Source: Cryobacterium inferilacus (GTDB taxonomy: Bacteria > Actinomycetota > Actinomycetes > Actinomycetales > Microbacteriaceae). Taken from it: a DNA stretch of 64,000 bases. A program made the translations under genes and the position numbers. Each line of letters opens with the position of its first letter. Within the stretch, counting starts at the first letter, position 1. Shown here piece after piece: positions 6,843 to 64,000 of this stretch. The stretch is taken from contig NZ_JAIEUL010000003.1 in NCBI RefSeq assembly GCF_019599185.1, positions 124,001 to 188,000 on the forward strand, written 5' to 3'. The notes under the pieces are model-generated. The model made no database searches, was not told the DNA's origin, and saw nothing but the letters and a program-made list of their open reading frames with translations.

Positions 6843-8033
6843 ATGCGCCACTTCGGCTTTCTGAAGAACTCCCAGGCCCACCAGCTGTTCCACCGACTGC
6901 CGCAGGAACTCTCGGTCGACTCGCCCGCTCCGTTGCTCGCCTCCGCGCTGGGGGCCACGCTGTACTGCCCCGGCGACCGGCCCAAGATCGCCAAGGCCGT
7001 GGTGAAGCAGGCGGCCCGCGGCTGCGTCAGCATGGTGCTCTGCCTCGAAGACGCCATCGCCGACAGCGCCGTGCCGGCCGCGGAGGTCAACGTGGCCGAG
7101 GCCATCAGAACCCTCCACACGCTCGCGGTGGAGAAGCCGAACACCGCCCTTCCGCTGCTCTTCGTGCGCGTGCGCAGCGCCGACCAGATGCTGCGTCTGG
7201 CCGAGTCCTGCGGTGAGGCCATCACTCTCCTGAGCGGTTTTGTGGTGCCCAAGTTCGAGAACAAGAACGGCTACGCCGAGGCGTTCTTCGACGCACTGCA
7301 CGTGATCCAGAGCCACAGCGGCGCCGACGGCCGGGCGGGGAGCCAGCGGCTGCGACTGATGCCGATCCTCGAGTCGCCGCGCATGATCCACAGCGAGACC
7401 CGCACCTCGGCGCTCTCGTCGATCCGCGAGATCCTGCACGACAACCGCGACGACGTGCTCGCCGCCCGCATCGGCGCCACCGACCTGTCCAGTGCGTTCG
7501 GGCTGCGGCGCTCGCGCGACCTCACCGTCTACGACGTGCAGGTGGTCGCGTCGGTGATCTCCGACATCGTGAACGTGCTGGGCCGTACAGAGGACTCCTT
7601 CGTGATCACCGGCACCGTCTGGGAACACTACGAGACCGAGCGCATCCTGCGCCCCCAACTGCGCCTCACCCCGTTCGTGGAGGCCAACGAGAAGGAACTG
7701 CGCCACAAGCTGCTGCTCGGCGGCCTGGACGGGCTGATCAGGGAGATCTCGCTCGACCAGGCCAACGGCCTGCTCGGCAAGACCGTGATCCACCCCACCC
7801 ACGTGTCGGTCGTGCACGCCATGTCGGTGGTGAGCCACGAGGAATACAGCGACGCCACCGTCATTCTGGGAAACGCCAACGGGGGCGCGAGCGCGTCACC
7901 GTACGGCAACAAGATGAACGAGGCCAAGCCGCACTCCGCCTGGGCGCACAAGACCATGCTGCGCGCCGAGGCCTTCGGGGTCGCCAGCGAGTCCACCACC
8001 TTCGTCGACCTCCTCGAAGCGAGCATGCGGTGA
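6843..8033 (+). CDS. HpcH/HpaI-citrate lyase-like aldolase of the Ter module
   Basis: A 396-residue TIM-barrel enzyme of the HpcH/HpaI aldolase and CitE superfamily. Superfamily strands are visible: MVLCLEDAIADS (acidic metal-site region), LLFVRVRS, GFVVPKFEN, RLMPILESPRM and RIGATDLSSAFG. Family members make or break C-C bonds next to a carboxylate or CoA ester using Mg2+. This type is a conserved member of Ter-linked gene groups predicted to make a nucleoside-like metabolite. It is followed, through 4-nt overlaps, by two phosphoribosyltransferase-type genes and a HAD gene, so all four probably act in one pathway. The substrate is unknown. Confidence 0.88.
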   Translation: MRHFGFLKNSQAHQLFHRLPQELSVDSPAPLLASALGATLYCPGDRPKIAKAVVKQAARGCVSMVLCLEDAIADSAVPAAEVNVAEAIRTLHTLAVEKPNTALPLLFVRVRSADQMLRLAESCGEAITLLSGFVVPKFENKNGYAEAFFDALHVIQSHSGADGRAGSQRLRLMPILESPRMIHSETRTSALSSIREILHDNRDDVLAARIGATDLSSAFGLRRSRDLTVYDVQVVASVISDIVNVLGRTEDSFVITGTVWEHYETERILRPQLRLTPFVEANEKELRHKLLLGGLDGLIREISLDQANGLLGKTVIHPTHVSVVHAMSVVSHEEYSDATVILGNANGGASASPYGNKMNEAKPHSAWAHKTMLRAEAFGVASESTTFVDLLEASMR

Positions 8034-9469
8034 CCGTGGCCACGGAGCTCGACATTCGGGTGCAGACGGATGCCGCCCGCAGCATCCTCGGCGTCGACGA
8101 GCTCGTCGGCATCGCGCTTCGTCGCAATCCCAAGCGAGCCCACCTGCTGGTCTCCACCGTGCTCGCCAAGCACGTTCCGACCGTGCCCGGTATCGCCCTG
8201 GCCGCCGGTGAGCTGCTCGGCCTGCTCGTGTCCGCCGCCGTCGCCGGCGCCACGGTCCCCGCCGCTGCCGGCTTCGGCGACCGGCTCGGCGAGCTGCTCA
8301 CCCGCCTCGCCGAGGGTCCGGGCGAAACAGATGCGGGTGCCGTCGACAAGGCCCGCCGTGATCTCGCCGAGCTGCGCCGCGATATCCGCCACGTGACGAC
8401 GACCCAACCCGAGGTGGTCACGTTCGGCTACGCCGAAACCGCCACAGGGCTCGGCCAGCTGGTGGCCGACGCACTGGGCTCGTACTACCTGCACTCCACC
8501 CGGCACGCACCGGCCGGCACCACGTCGTTCGCCGGTTTCGCCGAAGAGCACTCCCACGCCACCGACCACGCCCTGCTGCCCTCCGATCCGCACTGGCTGC
8601 AGGTCAACGGCACCCTCGTTCTGGTCGATGACGAACTGAGCACGGGCACCACGGTGATCAACACCATCACGGCGCTGCAGGCTCTGATACCGCAACGGCA
8701 CTGGGTGGTCGCCGCGCTGATCGACCTGCGCTCGAGCGCCGACCTCGCCAGATTCGATGAGCTCGCCGCCACCCTGGGCACCCGCATCTCCGTGGTCTGC
8801 CTCGGGGCCGGGTCGATCGAGCTACCCGCCGACGTGCTCACCAGGGCCCAGCGGATGATCGAGTCGATGCCGGCCGTCACCCCGGTGGGCGAGCCCGTCG
8901 GCGAGGTGCTGCTGCTCGACTGCACCGACCTGACGCCAGTGCGGAGCGCACGCTTCGGCACCACGGCCCCGGTCGACAGCCGGCTGGCCGCGGCGATCGC
9001 CGACCGGGTCGCCGCGGTGCTGCCCGGCGGCCAGCCCCACATTCAGCCCGGCGACCGCGGCATTCTCGTGGTCGGCTCAGAGGAGTTCATCGCCCTGCCG
9101 ATGCTCACCGCCCACGAGCTGGAACGCGCCGCTGCGCCCGGCCCGGTGCGATTCTCCACCAGCACCCGGTCACCGATCGCCGCGCTCGATGAGGCCGACT
9201 ACCCGATCCGGAGCGCCATCACGTTCCGCAGCCACGACACCACCTCCGACGGTGTCGGCGTGCGGTTCGCCTACAACCTCACGGCAGGCGTTCGTCGTTT
9301 CGGCACGGTGGTGTTCCTGCCCGAACCGGGCACAGACCCGGCCCTGCTGCACGGCGACGACGGCGTGGTTCACGCCATCCGCCGCGTCAGCGACCACGTG
9401 GTGGTCGTGCTCCTGCCTCAGCCGCTCCTGCCCCAGACAGACCCCACCGACGGGATGCCCCACCCATGA
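8030..9469 (+). CDS. Ter-module phosphoribosyltransferase with TRSP-type C-terminus
   Basis: A 479-residue two-part protein. The N-terminal half is a type I phosphoribosyltransferase: the PRPP loop LVDDELSTGTT is clear at about residues 197-207, preceded by a hood region. The C-terminal part (about 290-479) matches the TRSP domain found attached to PRTases in Ter loci, with segments such as LLLDCTDLTPVRSARFG and GILVVGSEEFIALPML. Predicted role: transfer of a base-like group to or from PRPP. The GTG start at 8030 overlaps the aldolase stop; a second GTG two codons later is also possible. Coupled by ATGA to the next gene. Confidence 0.88.
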   Translation: MTVATELDIRVQTDAARSILGVDELVGIALRRNPKRAHLLVSTVLAKHVPTVPGIALAAGELLGLLVSAAVAGATVPAAAGFGDRLGELLTRLAEGPGETDAGAVDKARRDLAELRRDIRHVTTTQPEVVTFGYAETATGLGQLVADALGSYYLHSTRHAPAGTTSFAGFAEEHSHATDHALLPSDPHWLQVNGTLVLVDDELSTGTTVINTITALQALIPQRHWVVAALIDLRSSADLARFDELAATLGTRISVVCLGAGSIELPADVLTRAQRMIESMPAVTPVGEPVGEVLLLDCTDLTPVRSARFGTTAPVDSRLAAAIADRVAAVLPGGQPHIQPGDRGILVVGSEEFIALPMLTAHELERAAAPGPVRFSTSTRSPIAALDEADYPIRSAITFRSHDTTSDGVGVRFAYNLTAGVRRFGTVVFLPEPGTDPALLHGDDGVVHAIRRVSDHVVVVLLPQPLLPQTDPTDGMPHP

Positions 9470-58598: not shown

Positions 58599-59414
58599 AT
58601 GAGCATGACGGATGGTTCGGTGACGAGCGCAGCCAGGGCACGCATCCGCTCGTTCTCGGTCTGGGTCTGGGTCGCCGGCGCCCTGGTGCTCTTCCTGGGC
58701 GCACTGAACACCTACGCAGACGTCGGGATCGGCGACGACGGCCTGGCCATCATCGGCGACGGCGAGAACCCGTGGGATGTCGAGAACCCACCGGTCTTCG
58801 AGGCCGACGGCACCACTTACTCCGGCGAGGGTGCCGGCCTGATCCGCATCCCACTCGAGGAACACACCCAGGACCCCTACCTGGTGAGCCTCACCTCCGG
58901 CGAGTACCTCGACTTCTATCTGACCCGCACCGAGGATCTCGGCCGCCCCGACGACGACCGTGGTTACCCCGCCAATGTCGGCTACCTCTACGACACCACG
59001 GACGAGCTGCTGCTGCTCCCCCCCGACGCCGACCTCGAACTCTGGGTGCGCACCGACGAGCCCTGGGAGCTCACCCTGCAGAAGACCGAGGTCGCCGAGA
59101 TCACCGACGGCTTCGTCAGCGGAAAGGGCAACGACTTCCTCGTCTACCGCGGCGACGCCGTCAGCGCACGCTTCGTGCACCGCGGCGAGGGCCTGTTCTA
59201 CGTCACCGTGCAGACTCTCGGCGGCCGCGCCGACCAGCCCATCATCGAGTCCGGTGAGGTAGACCAGCGCCAGTCCTGGGACCCCACCGAGGCCGTCTAC
59301 ATCAGCATCGAGGCCGACGCCGAGCGCGGCGCCTGGTCGGTTGACATCGACGAGCTGGCGACGGATGCCCCGACACCTGCACCACCCACCACGACAGAAA
59401 GCACCCCTCGATGA
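58599..59414 (+). CDS. Membrane-anchored protein of unknown function, first gene of Ycf46 operon
   Basis: A 271-residue protein. One helix, SFSVWVWVAGALVLFLGAL, near residues 19-37 would anchor it, with the rest outside the membrane. The outer part is acidic and predicted beta-rich (TTYSGEGAGLIRIPLEE, LELWVRTDEPWELTLQKTEV, DFLVYRGDAVSARFVHRG), ending in a Pro/Thr-rich tail. No family is recognised. A strong GGGGGGAGG site precedes the ATG. It overlaps the AAA ATPase gene by 4 nt, so it is probably a membrane partner of that system. Confidence 0.78.
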   Translation: MSMTDGSVTSAARARIRSFSVWVWVAGALVLFLGALNTYADVGIGDDGLAIIGDGENPWDVENPPVFEADGTTYSGEGAGLIRIPLEEHTQDPYLVSLTSGEYLDFYLTRTEDLGRPDDDRGYPANVGYLYDTTDELLLLPPDADLELWVRTDEPWELTLQKTEVAEITDGFVSGKGNDFLVYRGDAVSARFVHRGEGLFYVTVQTLGGRADQPIIESGEVDQRQSWDPTEAVYISIEADAERGAWSVDIDELATDAPTPAPPTTTESTPR

Positions 59415-61039
59415 GTTTCGCCCAGACGCTCGACCAGGCCTTCAAGGCCCGCCTGCCGCTGCTCTACATCGAGACCAGCGAGGAGGTGCGCGCCCTCGAG
59501 GAGGTGACCCGTGCCGCCCAGGCGCTGCGGCGCCCGCGCGAGGTGTGGACCTGGACCAGCGCCACCGGCCTGATCGGCCCGGACGGCAAGGGCGTGACCA
59601 ACACCAGCACCCCGGCCAGGGCGCTCGACCACATCGTCGGCATCCCCGAGAACGCGGTCTTCGTCTTCTGCGACCTGCACGCCTACTTCGGCACGGAGCA
59701 GCGCCCTGGCGACCCGGTCATCATCCGCAAGGTGCGCGAGACCGTGCTCGAACTGCGGCACGCGGATGCCGCCCGCGCACTGATCGTGACGGCTCCGGTG
59801 CGGTGCATCCCGCCAGAGCTCGACAAGCTCGCCCACCTGCTCGAGTTCCCGCTGCCAGACACCACCGAGCTGCGGCAGATGCTCGACACGATGATCCAGA
59901 ACAATTCCTCCGGCAGCGGCCGGATCAAAGTTGCGGCCGACGAGAAGACCCTGGAGAGCCTCGTGCAGGCCGCCCGCGGACTCACCATGTCCGAGGCCGA
60001 GAACGCCTTCGCCAGGGCCATGGTCGACGACGGCCAGCTCACCGCGAGCGACATCAGCGTGGTGCTCGACGAGAAGCGCCAGATCGTGAGCAAGTCCGGC
60101 CTGCTCGACTTCGTCACCAAGGCCCTCGACCTCGACTCCGTCGGTGGCCTGAACAACCTCAAGCGCTGGCTGTCCCGGCGGGACGGCTCGTGGCTGGCCG
60201 AGGCCGAGGAGTTCGGCCTGCCCGCCCCGAAGGGCGTGCTCATCACCGGGGTGCCCGGCTGTGGAAAGTCGCTCACCGCCAAGGCCATGGCCGCGTCCTG
60301 GGGCCTGCCGCTGCTCAGGCTCGACATCGGCCGGATCTTCTCCGGACTGGTCGGTTCCTCCGAGCAGAACCTGCGTACCGCCCTGGCCACCGCAGAGGCC
60401 GTCGCCCCGTGCATCCTCTGGGTCGACGAGATCGAGAAGGGCTTCTCCAACACCACCGGCACCGGCGACTCCGGCACCACCGCCCGGGTGTTCGGTTACT
60501 TCCTCACCTGGATGCAGGAGAAGAAGCATCCGGTGTTCGTCGTCGCCACGGCCAACAACATCGACTCGTTGCCGCCCGAGTTCATGCGCAAGGGCCGCTT
60601 CGACGAGATCTTCTTCGTCGACCTGCCCACCAACGTCGAACGACGCGCCATCTGGACCATCCAGCTCGCCGCCAACGCCACCGGCGGCAACGGACTGTCG
60701 GCCATCGGCGCCGACGACGTCGAGAAGCTCGTCGCCGACAGCGAGAACTACTCCGGCGCCGAGATCGAACAGGCCGTGATCGTGGCCCTCTACGAGGCCT
60801 TCGCCGAACGCCGCCCGGCCACCCTGCACGACCTCACCGAGGCGATCACCAACATGATCCCCCTCGCCGTGACCCAGTCCGAAGAGGTGCAGACCATCCG
60901 CGCCTGGGCCGAGGTTCGCGCCGTTCGGGCGACCGGCAGCGAAGACATCGACCCCGCCGAAGACGCCCTGGTCGGCGCCGTCGACACGACCGGTGCGGGG
61001 CTCTCCAGCCGTCGCGGCGGCCGCACCGTGGACTTCTAG
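59411..61039 (+). CDS. Ycf46-like AAA ATPase
   Basis: A 542-residue AAA+ ATPase. The first 250 residues contain an N-terminal region like that of chloroplast/cyanobacterial Ycf46 ([32 protein letters not shown]). The AAA core follows: Walker [16 protein letters not shown] near 279-287, Walker [12 protein letters not shown], sensor/second region [23 protein letters not shown] with a likely Arg finger. Ycf46 has been linked to regulating photosynthesis, but bacteria lacking photosynthesis also have it; function unknown. In this operon it is followed by DUF2997, radical SAM and DUF1257-like genes. Confidence 0.93.
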
Positions 61040-61062
61040 CCGCTTTTCGAACAGGACACCCC

Positions 61063-61287
61063 ATGGCACAGAACGCAACAGACAAGCAGCTCATCGTGCA
61101 GGTTCGCCCCGACGGCAGCGTGCACGCCGAAACCATCGGCATGTACGGCGACGAGTGCCTCGATTACATCGCCGTGCTCGAGAACATGCTCGACGCCGAG
61201 ACCACCGCGTCGTCGTTCACGGATGCCTACGCCCAGGTGGCCGCGCAGCAGCAGTCCAGCACGCAGAACTGGGACGGGACCAGGTGA
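61063..61287 (+). CDS. DUF2997 small protein
   Basis: A 74-residue protein. The core KQLIVQVRPDGSVHAETIGM then GDECLDYIAVLENML fits DUF2997, with the conserved Cys near residue 32. It has no signal or membrane helix. It lies 23 nt after the AAA gene and overlaps the radical SAM gene by 4 nt (GTGA). A small Cys-bearing protein beside a radical SAM enzyme may be a substrate, carrier or regulator. Family function unknown; similar genes sit beside DUF1257/Ycf35 genes in cyanobacteria. Confidence 0.85.
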   Translation: MAQNATDKQLIVQVRPDGSVHAETIGMYGDECLDYIAVLENMLDAETTASSFTDAYAQVAAQQQSSTQNWDGTR

Positions 61288-62027
61288 CCCTGCTCGGCAG
61301 CTCTCTGCTCGGGGCGTCCCTACTAGGCACCGTCGAACCGGGTGCCAAGCCCGGCACCGAGCTGCGCTGGTCACGATTCCTGACCGCGACCACGGCAGAG
61401 GGGCCCGGCCGGCGCTCGGCCCTGTGGGTGCAGGGCTGCAGCGTGCACTGCCCAGGCTGCTTCAACCCGCAGCTCTGGGCCGAGATCGGCGGCCGGGTCG
61501 AGAACACGGCCGAGCTCGCCGACCGGTTCGTGGCGGATGCGCTGGGCGCGGGCGTGCAGGGAATCACCCTCCTCGGCGGCGAACCCTTCGACCAGGCCGC
61601 GAGCCTCGCGACCATCGCAGAGGCCTTCCGCGCCGCTGGGCTCTCGGTGATGACCTTCTCCGGCTACCCGCTGGAGCTGCTCACCGAGTGGTCGGCGACG
61701 CGGCCAGACATCGCCAGACTGCTGGCCGCCACCGACCTGCTGATCGACGGGCCATACCTGCGCGACCGACCCGACGCCGTGCGGCCCTGGCTCGGCTCGA
61801 CCAACCAGGGCATTCGCGCGCTCACCCCCGTTTACGCCGATGAGGTCGCCCGCATCGACCTCGAGGGCGGGCGGGACAGGCTGGAGATCCGCATCCGCCC
61901 CGACGGGCGGATCGACATTAACGGCTGGGCCGACGACGCGGCTTTGAACGACCTGCTGCACGACCTCGGCCCCCGCCAGGACCGCCCTGTTCAGCACCGC
62001 CCTGTAACGAAAGCGAGACTCGCATGA
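61284..62027 (+). CDS. Radical SAM protein with single 4Fe-4S cluster (activase-like)
   Basis: A 247-residue radical SAM enzyme. The cluster motif is CSVHCPGC (C-x3-C-x2-C) near residue 53, followed by SAM-binding ITLLGGEPFDQAA (GGE motif). Size and the GPYLRDR region resemble glycyl-radical-enzyme activases such as NrdG, but no glycyl-radical enzyme adjoins it. It starts at a GTG overlapping the DUF2997 stop and ends by overlapping the DUF1257-like start. Activation or modification of a partner in this operon is inferred. Confidence 0.9.
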   Translation: MTLLGSSLLGASLLGTVEPGAKPGTELRWSRFLTATTAEGPGRRSALWVQGCSVHCPGCFNPQLWAEIGGRVENTAELADRFVADALGAGVQGITLLGGEPFDQAASLATIAEAFRAAGLSVMTFSGYPLELLTEWSATRPDIARLLAATDLLIDGPYLRDRPDAVRPWLGSTNQGIRALTPVYADEVARIDLEGGRDRLEIRIRPDGRIDINGWADDAALNDLLHDLGPRQDRPVQHRPVTKARLA

Positions 62028-62518
62028 GTGTCACCCTGATCCTGCTTCCCATCGCCCTGGCCGCGGCGGCCGCGGCCGGCGGAGTGGGTGTTCTCGGCGC
62101 CGCGGTCACGGCCAAGGCCGGCGACGGTGCCGGGCCGGCGGCCCAGATTCGGGTGCGCACCCGGATGAAGGACAGCACGCTGCTCGCCGACGCCCTGACC
62201 AACCTCGGCGCCACGGCGATCACCGTGTCGCGCAGCCGCGTCACCGCGAAGCTCGACGGCGTGACGCTCACGATGACCCTCACCGACGACGGGGTCTGGG
62301 AGGCCCACGTCGAAGGCCGGGACGGCAACGAGGTGACGGTTCTCAGTGCCACCGAGCTCCTGCAGCGCCTCGACGGCGAGTACGCAGCGATGGTGCAGCA
62401 GGCCGTCGCCGAGAAGATCCGTGCCCGCGCCGAGACCTCGGGATTCGACCTCGTCTCGGAGACCAGAGAAGCGGATGACACCGTGACCATGGTGCTCAAC
62501 GTTCGCGCCCAGGCGTGA
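62024..62518 (+). CDS. DUF1257/Ycf35-like protein
   Basis: A 164-residue protein. A hydrophobic Ala/Gly helix at residues 3-30 could anchor it. The remainder resembles DUF1257 (Ycf35): RTRMKDSTLLADALTNLG near the start, then strands around VTAKLDGVTLTMTLTDDG and LLQRLDGEYAAMVQQAVAEK and a final VTMVLNVRAQ. DUF1257 has no known function; its cyanobacterial relatives sit next to DUF2997 and Ycf46 genes, which supports the call. The match is from pattern, not alignment, and divergent in detail. Confidence 0.6.
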   Translation: MSVTLILLPIALAAAAAAGGVGVLGAAVTAKAGDGAGPAAQIRVRTRMKDSTLLADALTNLGATAITVSRSRVTAKLDGVTLTMTLTDDGVWEAHVEGRDGNEVTVLSATELLQRLDGEYAAMVQQAVAEKIRARAETSGFDLVSETREADDTVTMVLNVRAQA

Positions 62519-62525
62519 CTCACCC

Positions 62526-63377
62526 ATGACAACCGCCTCAGGTCGCTCGCGCGGCGCGTCCGCCACGGCGAACGCGTCTGTCCCGTCGATCGCCTGGCGC
62601 CTGGGCGCGAGCTCCTGGCTGCTGCTGCTGGTTTTCGGGCCAGGCGGCGGCGTCGCCTGGGTGGCGTTCGGGATTCTCTCCCTCATCGGCCGGCGTCTCT
62701 CGTGGGGCATCGCCTCCGGCGTGTACGGGCTGGCGGCCATCATCGTGCGCATTCCGGAGGAGCCGGTGGGCGGTATCGCCCAGGGCAGCCTGTACCTGGT
62801 GGCGCTGCTGCACGGCCTCATCATCAACCACCGCTGGCTGCTGCTGCTCTGGGGCCGGCATGAGAACGGCCTCACGCTGATCGGCACTCCGCGCGGGTCG
62901 AAGCCACGGGCCAGGGCGGCCACGCCACGCCGGCGGAAGACGGCGATTCCGAAGGAGGCCGAGGCTCTGCTCGGCGGAGACGGCACCGCCAAGTCGGACT
63001 ACGTGGACGAGTCCGCGCCCGAGCCGGCGCCCCAGCGGCGCGGGTTGAGCCGCGCGCAACGGCGCGCGCAGGCGGCCGCAGAGGCTCGCGCCGACACCCG
63101 GGCGGCGGCGGCCCGTTCGGAGCCCGCGACGCCCGCCGAACTGATCGACGTGAACACGGCGAACCAGCGCACCCTCGCCAGGCTCACCGGCCTGGACCGC
63201 GCACGGGCCAAAGCCGCGATCGCCGAGCGCACCAGCCGTGGCGGCTTCGCGTCCCTCGAGGCCTTCGCCTCGTCGGCCGGGCTGCAGCCGCACGAGCTGG
63301 TGCGCTTGCGCGCCGAGGCCTACTGCTCCCCCCGCCCGCGGGCCGACCGCAGCTTCGGCCGGCGCGTCGACTACTGA
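62526..63377 (+). CDS. Membrane protein with ComEA-like helix-hairpin-helix tail
   Basis: A 283-residue protein. Residues 25-120 hold three to four hydrophobic helices (SSWLLLLVFGPGGGVAWVAF, GSLYLVALLHGLIINHRWLLLLW); then a charged Arg/Ala-rich linker. The C-terminal 65 residues form a helix-hairpin-helix, IDVNTANQRTLARLTGLDRARAKAA, with FASLEAFASSAGLQPHEL after it, as in ComEA-type DNA- or protein-binding domains. It is 7 nt after the DUF1257-like gene and completes the operon. It could anchor the complex near the membrane; the function is unknown. Confidence 0.85.
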   Translation: MTTASGRSRGASATANASVPSIAWRLGASSWLLLLVFGPGGGVAWVAFGILSLIGRRLSWGIASGVYGLAAIIVRIPEEPVGGIAQGSLYLVALLHGLIINHRWLLLLWGRHENGLTLIGTPRGSKPRARAATPRRRKTAIPKEAEALLGGDGTAKSDYVDESAPEPAPQRRGLSRAQRRAQAAAEARADTRAAAARSEPATPAELIDVNTANQRTLARLTGLDRARAKAAIAERTSRGGFASLEAFASSAGLQPHELVRLRAEAYCSPRPRADRSFGRRVDY

Positions 63378-63396: not shown

Positions 63397-64000
63397 CTAT
63401 CGCGCGGTCGGGTAGGCCTCGGCGAGCAGGGCACCGAGGTAGCCCACGATCGCGCCAGGGCCCGAACGCGGAGCGACGGCCTCGATCTCGGCGTTGTAGT
63501 TGGTGTTCGTGTTCACGTCGTAGGTCACGATCCGGCCGTCCGCGGTCTCGATGAACTCGATTCCGGCCACCTCGATGCCCTCGGTGCGGAGGAAGGCCCG
63601 GTAGCGGTCGATGATCGGGTTCTCGAACCCCTCGCGCAGGGAGAAGATCTGCTGCCCGGCCTCCGGCAGGATGCTCGCGCCTGGCGGCATGAGCAGCGCT
63701 CCGGTGGTCGGGTCGATGGCGCAGGCATCCGCCGGGCAGAGCTGGTAACCGCCGCGGGCCGTGTCGGCCCTGATCGCATAGATGAACTCGTCTCCCACGA
63801 TCTCCACCCTGGTGACCTCGGGCTGGGCGGCCACGATGAACTCCTGCAGCAGCGAGATGCCGTCTTCGGGCTCCTCGTACAGGCCGGCGTCGATGGCCGC
63901 GGCCAGTTCGGCGGCGCTGTCGAACTTCTGCACGCCCAGGCCCTTGCCGCCCTGGTTGTGCTTGGTGATGAACGGGGTCGGGAAGTCGGCAGCGGCCTCA
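63397..64000 (-). CDS. ATP-grasp (RimK-like) ligase, C-terminal part only
   Basis: The gene starts beyond the right edge; 200 codons are visible, ending at the TAG 63397. ATP-grasp features are seen: PFITKHNQGGKGLGV (nucleotide-binding loop), ISLLQEFI (adenine-binding/Glu region), and GIEFIETADGRIVTYDVNTNTN, where Glu and Asn residues bind Mg2+-ATP. RimK-like enzymes ligate amino acids to carboxylates of peptides or small molecules. It is convergent with the Ycf46 operon and shares no overlap. Its substrate and N-terminus cannot be seen. Confidence 0.85.
   Translation of the reverse strand, partial: EAAADFPTPFITKHNQGGKGLGVQKFDSAAELAAAIDAGLYEEPEDGISLLQEFIVAAQPEVTRVEIVGDEFIYAIRADTARGGYQLCPADACAIDPTTGALLMPPGASILPEAGQQIFSLREGFENPIIDRYRAFLRTEGIEVAGIEFIETADGRIVTYDVNTNTNYNAEIEAVAPRSGPGAIVGYLGALLAEAYPTAR

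Follow-up and report, generated by a model that had tools for sequence, protein, structure and literature searches.

The 64,000-nucleotide stretch of Cryobacterium inferilacus DNA analyzed here, referred to as the window, contains an operon of six tightly packed + strand open reading frames (ORFs), A to F, at positions 58599 to 63377, five of which represent a widely conserved unit. Sequence comparison indicates that this unit is modular: a triad of genes for a AAA ATPase (B), a DUF1257-like protein (E), and a DUF2997 protein (C) is joined, across a large section of the family, by a pair that encodes a radical SAM protein (D) and a membrane protein with a helix-hairpin-helix (HHH) domain (F). 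A C-terminal tail, R-x-(V/I/L)-(D/E)-hydrophobic, is common to the ATPase and the HHH protein, which are otherwise unrelated. The conserved gene system as such is well supported by these comparisons, and from them we infer a mechanism. What is new is the combined system, as each constituent family was already known; we found no description of the combination in the literature searched, subscription journals lying largely outside it.

Recurrence of the gene set was followed in the best 80 of 554 confirmed ATPase relatives from a scan of a species collection. Because they were taken as the best of 554, these named-genome loci lean toward the window's type; they are also not independent, ten being titled Gastranaerophilales or Gastranaerophilus. 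A radical SAM gene is present in 52 of the 80, DUF2997 in 52, and DUF1257 or E in 64, with all three in 45 and none in 11. Together with the window's own locus, four loci from genomes of the same family, and five plasmid loci, the 52 make up a set of 62 radical SAM loci, and in 51 of these the combination of ATPase, DUF1257-like, DUF2997, membrane HHH, and radical SAM genes is complete. Gene order is fluid: we counted 22 order strings, the commonest being F-D-B-E-C (16 loci) and B-E-C-F-D (13), with the window's B-C-D-E-F in 7. By record title, complete sets occur in Actinomycetota, Bacillota, Gastranaerophilales, Armatimonadetes (L057), Planctomycetaceae (L063), Sebaldella (L076), and Tannerellaceae (L079). 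Reversed-ORF decoys produced no match better than an E value of 0.11 over the four profiles tested, so the recurrence goes beyond chance. Chance or merely inherited adjacency was considered and is unlikely, since the set outlasts many rearrangements and the decoys are clean.

Closer to the window, the distribution is patchy. With the window genome included, DUF2997 was detected in 5 of 120 family genomes and, among 396 phylum genomes, in 3, of which one scored below the Pfam cut-off, and it was not found in the single same-genus genome sampled. All four other family genomes with DUF2997 carry all six genes in the same order, at 72 to 88% identity to the window for the ATPase, 37 to 56% for A, and 34 to 49% for F; among the matches listed, the closest named relatives of the ATPase are from Microbacterium species (70 to 72%). 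Two Paenarthrobacter plasmids and one Rhodococcus plasmid have the order ATPase, E-like, DUF2997, F, radical SAM, and a Paenibacillus polymyxa plasmid has ATPase, DUF1257, DUF2997, and radical SAM genes according to NCBI's own labels. Relatives of gene A were found in only eight loci (the window, the four family genomes, two Microbacterium, and one Arthrobacter), and the widely conserved unit therefore consists of five genes, not six. An initial annotation, made from the sequence of the window, had named co-occurrence of all six genes as support for a system; such co-occurrence holds in the family genomes with DUF2997, and more widely a five-gene unit without A takes its place. The same annotation had let its case depend on the neighborhood recurring beyond this strain, which it does in other genera, on plasmids, and, by record title, in several phyla, bearing out the expectation of a conserved, unexplained machine not tied to photosynthesis.

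Some loci depart from the common pattern. The genome of L036 (Dactylosporangium sucinum) holds a second set, L146, with the order DUF2997, radical SAM, ATPase. On Treponema succinifaciens plasmid pTRESU01 (L026), a radical SAM and ATPase pair lies amid contractile-injection genes (VgrG/Pvc8 family, baseplate V), and neither DUF2997 nor HHH was matched at that locus. On Pseudanabaena galeata plasmid pPg_01 (L027), the triad is intermixed with genes for GrpE, Hsp70, an AAA_21-type ATPase, and a WD40 protein.

The modular reading derives from the company that the HHH protein keeps. A same-strand HHH protein was detected in 54 of the 62 radical SAM loci versus 1 of 41 ATPase loci lacking a radical SAM gene, using a profile that took in the tail, having been made from the final 110 residues; the single positive locus of the latter kind lies on a 6.9-kb contig. 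F and D are adjacent in 43 of the 54 loci by hand count. This association and adjacency lead us to read the set as a triad B/E/C plus a linked pair D/F. In a tree of 107 ATPases, made by a quick method and containing long branches, the radical SAM label requires 6 changes versus 34.6 in shuffles. The number of HHH genes varies: seven consecutive F-type HHH matches precede the radical SAM gene in L066 (2296-7338), and two are present in several other loci, a variation in copy number that would suit a client or an effector. Some HHH proteins, in L052, L062, and L057, have a GYF_2 domain ahead of the HHH domain.

The tail connects the two modules. Its motif expression was written after tails had been seen, and the less biased count comes from a similarity cluster of F proteins that was not selected by tail, in which 63 of 65 end in (G/E)-R-x-(V/I/L)-D-(L/F/I/Y/V/W). 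The ATPases of radical SAM loci, which form a separate cluster, mostly end in R-G-G-R-x-(L/V/I)-(D/E)-F, and 51 of 62 fit the strict motif. Among the other ORFs of radical SAM loci the tail is found in 5 of 5021. In loci without a radical SAM gene, 6 of 44 ATPases carry it, as do 14 of the 4567 remaining ORFs. A related ending, (Q/K)-R-(L/M)-E-F, is seen in all 13 ATPases from cyanobacterial loci. Two of the five other ORFs with the tail in radical SAM loci stand out. At L083 a tail-bearing protein that looks membrane-bound by eye adjoins the radical SAM gene, and no HHH domain was found there. Beside the set in L061, a protein with an Mrr-type restriction-endonuclease domain (7809-8549; PF04471, 75.9 bits) is also tail-ended and looks membrane-bound by eye.

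At the DNA level, the search pattern, chosen in advance, was G-(R/S)-x-(V/I/L/M)-D-(F/Y) followed by TRR, which also admits TGG as the last codon. The window genome (G000) has exactly two matches, the C-terminal ends of B (GGRTVDF-COOH, 61016-61036, + strand) and F (GRRVDY-COOH, 63357-63374, + strand), and no match to the backward control, which gave up to three matches in other genomes. Among the other operon genomes, G001 has two matches, at its B and F ends, G033 and G086 have one each, in the ATPase, and G108 has none, the misses being due to tails with EF, EL, or DL at the end. Among seven family genomes in which DUF2997 was not detected, five have no match, G003 has one with a true stop, and G017 has one with TGG; one match in G527 likewise ends in TGG. 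The codons of the B and F tails differ, which argues for selection on the peptide. One search of an open-access library turned up no mention of the shared tail.

Outside radical SAM loci, the triad was found in cyanobacteria and phages. In 13 cyanobacterial loci the ATPase gene is followed by a DUF1257 gene, with no radical SAM or HHH gene there. DUF2997 is located elsewhere in the genome in all eight of these cyanobacteria that were searched, each time beside a further DUF1257 gene, in agreement with the cyanobacterial cluster duf2997-ycf35-fed7, whose fed7 is listed as [4Fe-4S] in the accessible part of PMC4284462. No standard ferredoxin motif was found in the 3-kb cyanobacterial DUF2997 loci, so that the link to fed7 rests on that publication. 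The triad also occurs in some phages of Rhizobium, Rhodobacter, Aeromonas, and Agrobacterium, and it is thus not tied to photosynthesis. DUF2997 relatives are present in 10 phage records, all among the 56 records with the ATPase, both sets including near-copies of one phage; a Mycobacterium phage and a Streptococcus satellite phage have the ATPase only. The four phage loci that we read have the order ATPase, a protein of 208 to 243 residues, DUF1257, and DUF2997, with a small ORF before DUF1257 in JP1. The intervening protein (L122, 6816-7454; L123, 6765-7391; L126, 5423-6154; L127, 5440-6132) ends in basic and hydrophobic residues, faintly like the tail, and the three of the four that were scanned had no PHROG match.

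Published biology on the Ycf46 family is sparse. In the accessible part of PMC7496141, several stresses, iron and oxidative stress among them, elicit a response of the slr0373-slr0374-slr0376 operon, slr0374 being Ycf46, and loss of Ycf46 is reported to lower extracellular carbonic anhydrase activity (citing Jiang et al. 2015). The available portion of PMC5940233 describes red algal plastids from certain habitats that have lost ycf46, ycf35, ycf34, and pbsA jointly, a loss that its authors link to iron.

The protein assignments behind these counts largely uphold the initial annotation. Its layout of six rightward genes with 4-nucleotide overlaps or gaps of at most 23 nucleotides is confirmed by the ORFs (overlaps of 4 nucleotides at A/B, C/D, and D/E; gaps of 23 nucleotides at B/C and 7 at E/F), and its description of D as a radical SAM protein with C-x3-C-x2-C, of F as a membrane protein with an HHH end, of A as an anchored outer protein, and of the 74-residue protein as DUF2997 agrees with the domain matches and hydropathy given below. 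Its DUF1257 call for the 164-residue protein stands by profile comparison and fails at the Pfam cut-off.

B (59411-61039, + strand, 542 residues; PF00004, 105.9 bits) combines an AAA domain, Walker A and B motifs, and full-length similarity to ATPases encoded beside DUF1257, by which we class it as Ycf46-type. The G, K, and S columns of its Walker A motif, GVPGCGKS (60248-60271, + strand), are invariant in the ATPase alignment. It is 42% identical to cyanobacterial plasmid homologues that adjoin DUF1257 and DUF2997, and by sequence its closest solved relatives are unfoldases of the Cdc48/p97 type. The name Ycf46 follows the initial annotation and general knowledge of the family, and it is used here as a label of type rather than of orthology to plastid Ycf46 or Slr0374.

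C (61063-61287, + strand, 74 residues) matches PF11211 at 44.2 bits, above the cut-off of 24.1. Its Cys32 (61156-61158, + strand) is invariant in 82 of 82 aligned DUF2997 sequences, and the Gly three residues earlier is kept in 80 of 82, in both cases regardless of a radical SAM gene nearby. By contrast, T, D, and Y at alignment columns 20, 30, and 31 are frequent in the radical SAM group alone. From these counts L056 (contig end) was dropped and L146 was placed in the radical SAM group, both decided post hoc. A DUF2997 alignment covered 50 of 54 eligible relatives. The model of C, a hairpin and two helices with a mean predicted local distance difference test score (pLDDT) of 67.9, had no structural match above a Z score of 2.3, and a DUF2997 sequence search of PDB chains returned no convincing match.

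E (62024-62518, + strand, 164 residues) has one membrane-like segment by hydropathy and a divergent DUF1257-like domain. It has no match to the Pfam family DUF1257/Ycf35 (PF06868) at the gathering cut-off, and 2 of 47 members of its family match PF06868 at an E value of 0.01 or better (best, 6e-4). An alignment of 46 of 51 eligible E relatives compared with cyanobacterial DUF1257 gave an hhalign probability of 89.7% over 78 columns, an earlier comparison with few sequences having given 39%. An iterated E profile, which may have absorbed DUF1257 members, recovers all eight cyanobacterial DUF1257 genes beside DUF2997 at 2.3e-11 or better. Profile comparison thus identifies E as a divergent relative of DUF1257, though below the Pfam cut-off. 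Its model is confident (mean pLDDT, 82.1; 100 of 164 residues at 90 or more), with a best Foldseek E value of 0.023 and a best BFVD match, to an unnamed viral protein, at 3.3e-4. PDB matches were tried as a clue to the fold and set aside: they tie between unlike folds (adaptin appendage, KA1 domains, and Flpp3; best Z score 8.7 over 87 residues at 2.7 Å), and for this reason we read no function from the model.

D (61284-62027, + strand, 247 residues, GTG start) is an NrdG-like protein of the radical SAM superfamily, with a CxxxCxxC cluster motif (61437-61460, + strand) that was read from the sequence and is kept in 62 relatives, a Fer4_12 match of 103.7 bits (cut-off, 22), and a PF04055 match of 25.6 bits, below the cut-off of 29.5. 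It was matched by sequence to a PflA structure. A C-terminal hairpin (61878-61928, + strand) resembles DUF2997 with an hhalign probability of 91% over 18 columns and a score of 32.0, versus a maximum of 12.9 among 100 column shuffles and 16.4 with the alignment reversed. F (62526-63377, + strand, 283 residues) has three membrane-like segments by hydropathy and a C-terminal HHH_3 domain (PF12836; 40.6 bits, cut-off 27).

The lineage-specific protein A (58599-59414, + strand, 271 residues) has, in a simple hydropathy scan, one N-terminal membrane-like segment, the remainder being predicted outside, and matched no Pfam family. A promoter and terminator scan gave no signal above shuffles, and the photosynthetic reaction-centre family, PF00124, is not matched in the window genome. 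Converging on F, a - strand gene at 63397-63933 encodes a 178-residue protein with a weak RimK/ATP-grasp match (TIGR00768, 18.2 bits). This right-flank gene had no match in six relatives and the left-flank gene had distant matches only, in three of the six, so that no empty insertion site could be named. Base composition is even, and no tRNA gene that might serve as an insertion site is present in L008 to L011 or L014.

Taken together, the set is best read as a membrane-tethered AAA+ remodeling machine whose HHH client docks by its tail and which is modified by the radical SAM protein, a tentative proposal that may well prove wrong. By comparison, the triad in cyanobacteria and phages, the linked pair, and the common tail of ATPase and HHH protein are established as features of sequence. 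In the proposed machine, B would form a ring-shaped motor with the DUF1257-type and DUF2997 proteins as accessory subunits, E additionally tethering the motor to the membrane in the window's version. The HHH protein would be a client or an anchor whose tail copies that of the motor, so that both might dock on one site; Mpa and Bpa, which both use GQYL, indicate that tail sharing can mean a common receptor. Docking would be switched by the radical SAM protein through modification of one of the machine's parts, with the shared tail or DUF2997 as the likeliest target. The HHH domain, for its part, may hold DNA on the membrane's inner side. At a guess, the physiological purpose would be to handle protein complexes bound to membrane or DNA during stress. 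It is tempting, though on balance improbable, to go further and assume a new class of AAA+ system in which motor and membrane client dock by the same tail and the radical SAM protein docks through its copy of the DUF2997 hairpin and permits or prevents docking by chemical modification of the tail or of DUF2997; a stripped form would then be kept by cyanobacteria, and by chloroplasts to judge by the names Ycf46 and Ycf35, and some phages would have a triad of their own.

Several observations weigh against the remodeling machine. No HHH protein was recognized in 8 of the 62 radical SAM loci, some of them at contig ends. The strict tail is missing from 11 of 62 ATPases in radical SAM loci and from 38 of 44 in loci without that gene, and 5 of 6 phage ATPases lack the tail. 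As the Gly and Cys of DUF2997 are kept equally well without a radical SAM gene nearby, they are not by themselves a modification site, and the likeness between the hairpin of D and DUF2997 covers only 18 columns and may be convergent. Docking, the client role, and modification are what we infer here from sequence.

A system of defence or mobile-element conflict, in which the HHH protein, held in the membrane, would capture incoming DNA for the ATPase complex to act on, the phage triad being a counter-measure or borrowed machinery, is unlikely, if the strongest of the competing explanations. It would account for the presence in 5 of 120 family genomes, carriage on plasmids, the HHH_3 domains, the tail-ended Mrr-type nuclease beside the L061 set, and the triad in phages. 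However, PADLOC 2023 did not recognize the set: its best match to the ATPase, IetA at 85.9 bits, covers the AAA part only, and the others are TRIP13 on the AAA part and weak matches for C and D, with none for A, E, or F. The usual set also contains no restriction, toxin, or nuclease gene, and the triad in all eight cyanobacteria tested suggests housekeeping there.

Doubtful, too, is a role in iron-sulfur (Fe-S) or redox maintenance, in which DUF2997, through its invariant Cys, and DUF1257 would handle a cluster or a thiol and the Fe-S partner would be the radical SAM protein in this set and, in cyanobacteria, a [4Fe-4S] ferredoxin. The duf2997-ycf35-fed7 cluster, the Cys in 82 of 82 sequences, the joint plastid loss of ycf46, ycf35, ycf34, and pbsA, and the iron and oxidative stress response of slr0373-slr0374-slr0376 all fit this explanation, but it has no role for the shared tail or the HHH protein, a cluster could not be held by a single conserved Cys on its own, and no Fe-S gene was seen beside the triad in the four phage loci, nor a standard ferredoxin motif in the cyanobacterial ones. 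Least of all do we expect D to be a standard activase, with anaerobic ribonucleotide reductase or another glycyl radical enzyme as its target, whose place in the operon is accidental. Its best NCBIfam match is indeed NrdG (TIGR02491) and the window genome has glycyl radical enzymes, yet the score of 86.2 bits is below the cut-off of 126.1, D has the extra C-terminal hairpin, and it stays with the set through many gene orders. Moreover, two of the five operon genomes, G033 and G086, match neither Gly_radical (PF01228) nor NRDD (PF13597), so that activating such an enzyme is not its general job.

To our knowledge, Ycf46, Ycf35, and DUF2997 have lacked an explanation in cyanobacteria and algal plastids, where the usual suspicion is that they take part in photosynthesis. 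A linked module in non-photosynthetic bacteria, plasmids, and phages shifts the question away from photosynthesis, and with the operon a compact system is available for experiments in organisms other than phototrophs. A practical starting point is the shared tail, a short peptide that can serve as bait for its receptor. Radical SAM modification of a AAA+ machine, if true, would be a new kind of regulation.

The nearest known counterpart is cyanobacterial Ycf46 (Slr0374) with duf2997-ycf35-fed7, which has the same ATPase, DUF1257, and DUF2997 families. Unlike in the window, the cyanobacterial set is split over two loci and the ATPase locus, presumably that of Ycf46, has no radical SAM or HHH gene; according to the accessible part of PMC4284462, the ferredoxin Fed7 occurs instead. 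The phage triad, for example that of Rhizobium phage RHph_I4, has ATPase, DUF1257, and DUF2997 genes within 3.4 kb on one strand, as the same families are arranged in the window, but it lacks a radical SAM match and includes the extra protein of 208 to 243 residues between ATPase and DUF1257. The NrdG and PflA activases have the same radical SAM core with CxxxCxxC, from which D differs by its C-terminal hairpin, a sub-equivalog score, and the two of five genomes without a glycyl radical enzyme. Finally, the ATPase Mpa and the unrelated Bpa both interact with the proteasome (accessible part of PMC4254994) and, like B and F, pair an ATPase with an unrelated protein by a common C-terminal motif, a likeness that in our case is one of sequence; there the motif is GQYL and the receptor is the 20S proteasome, whereas the window's tail is another motif.

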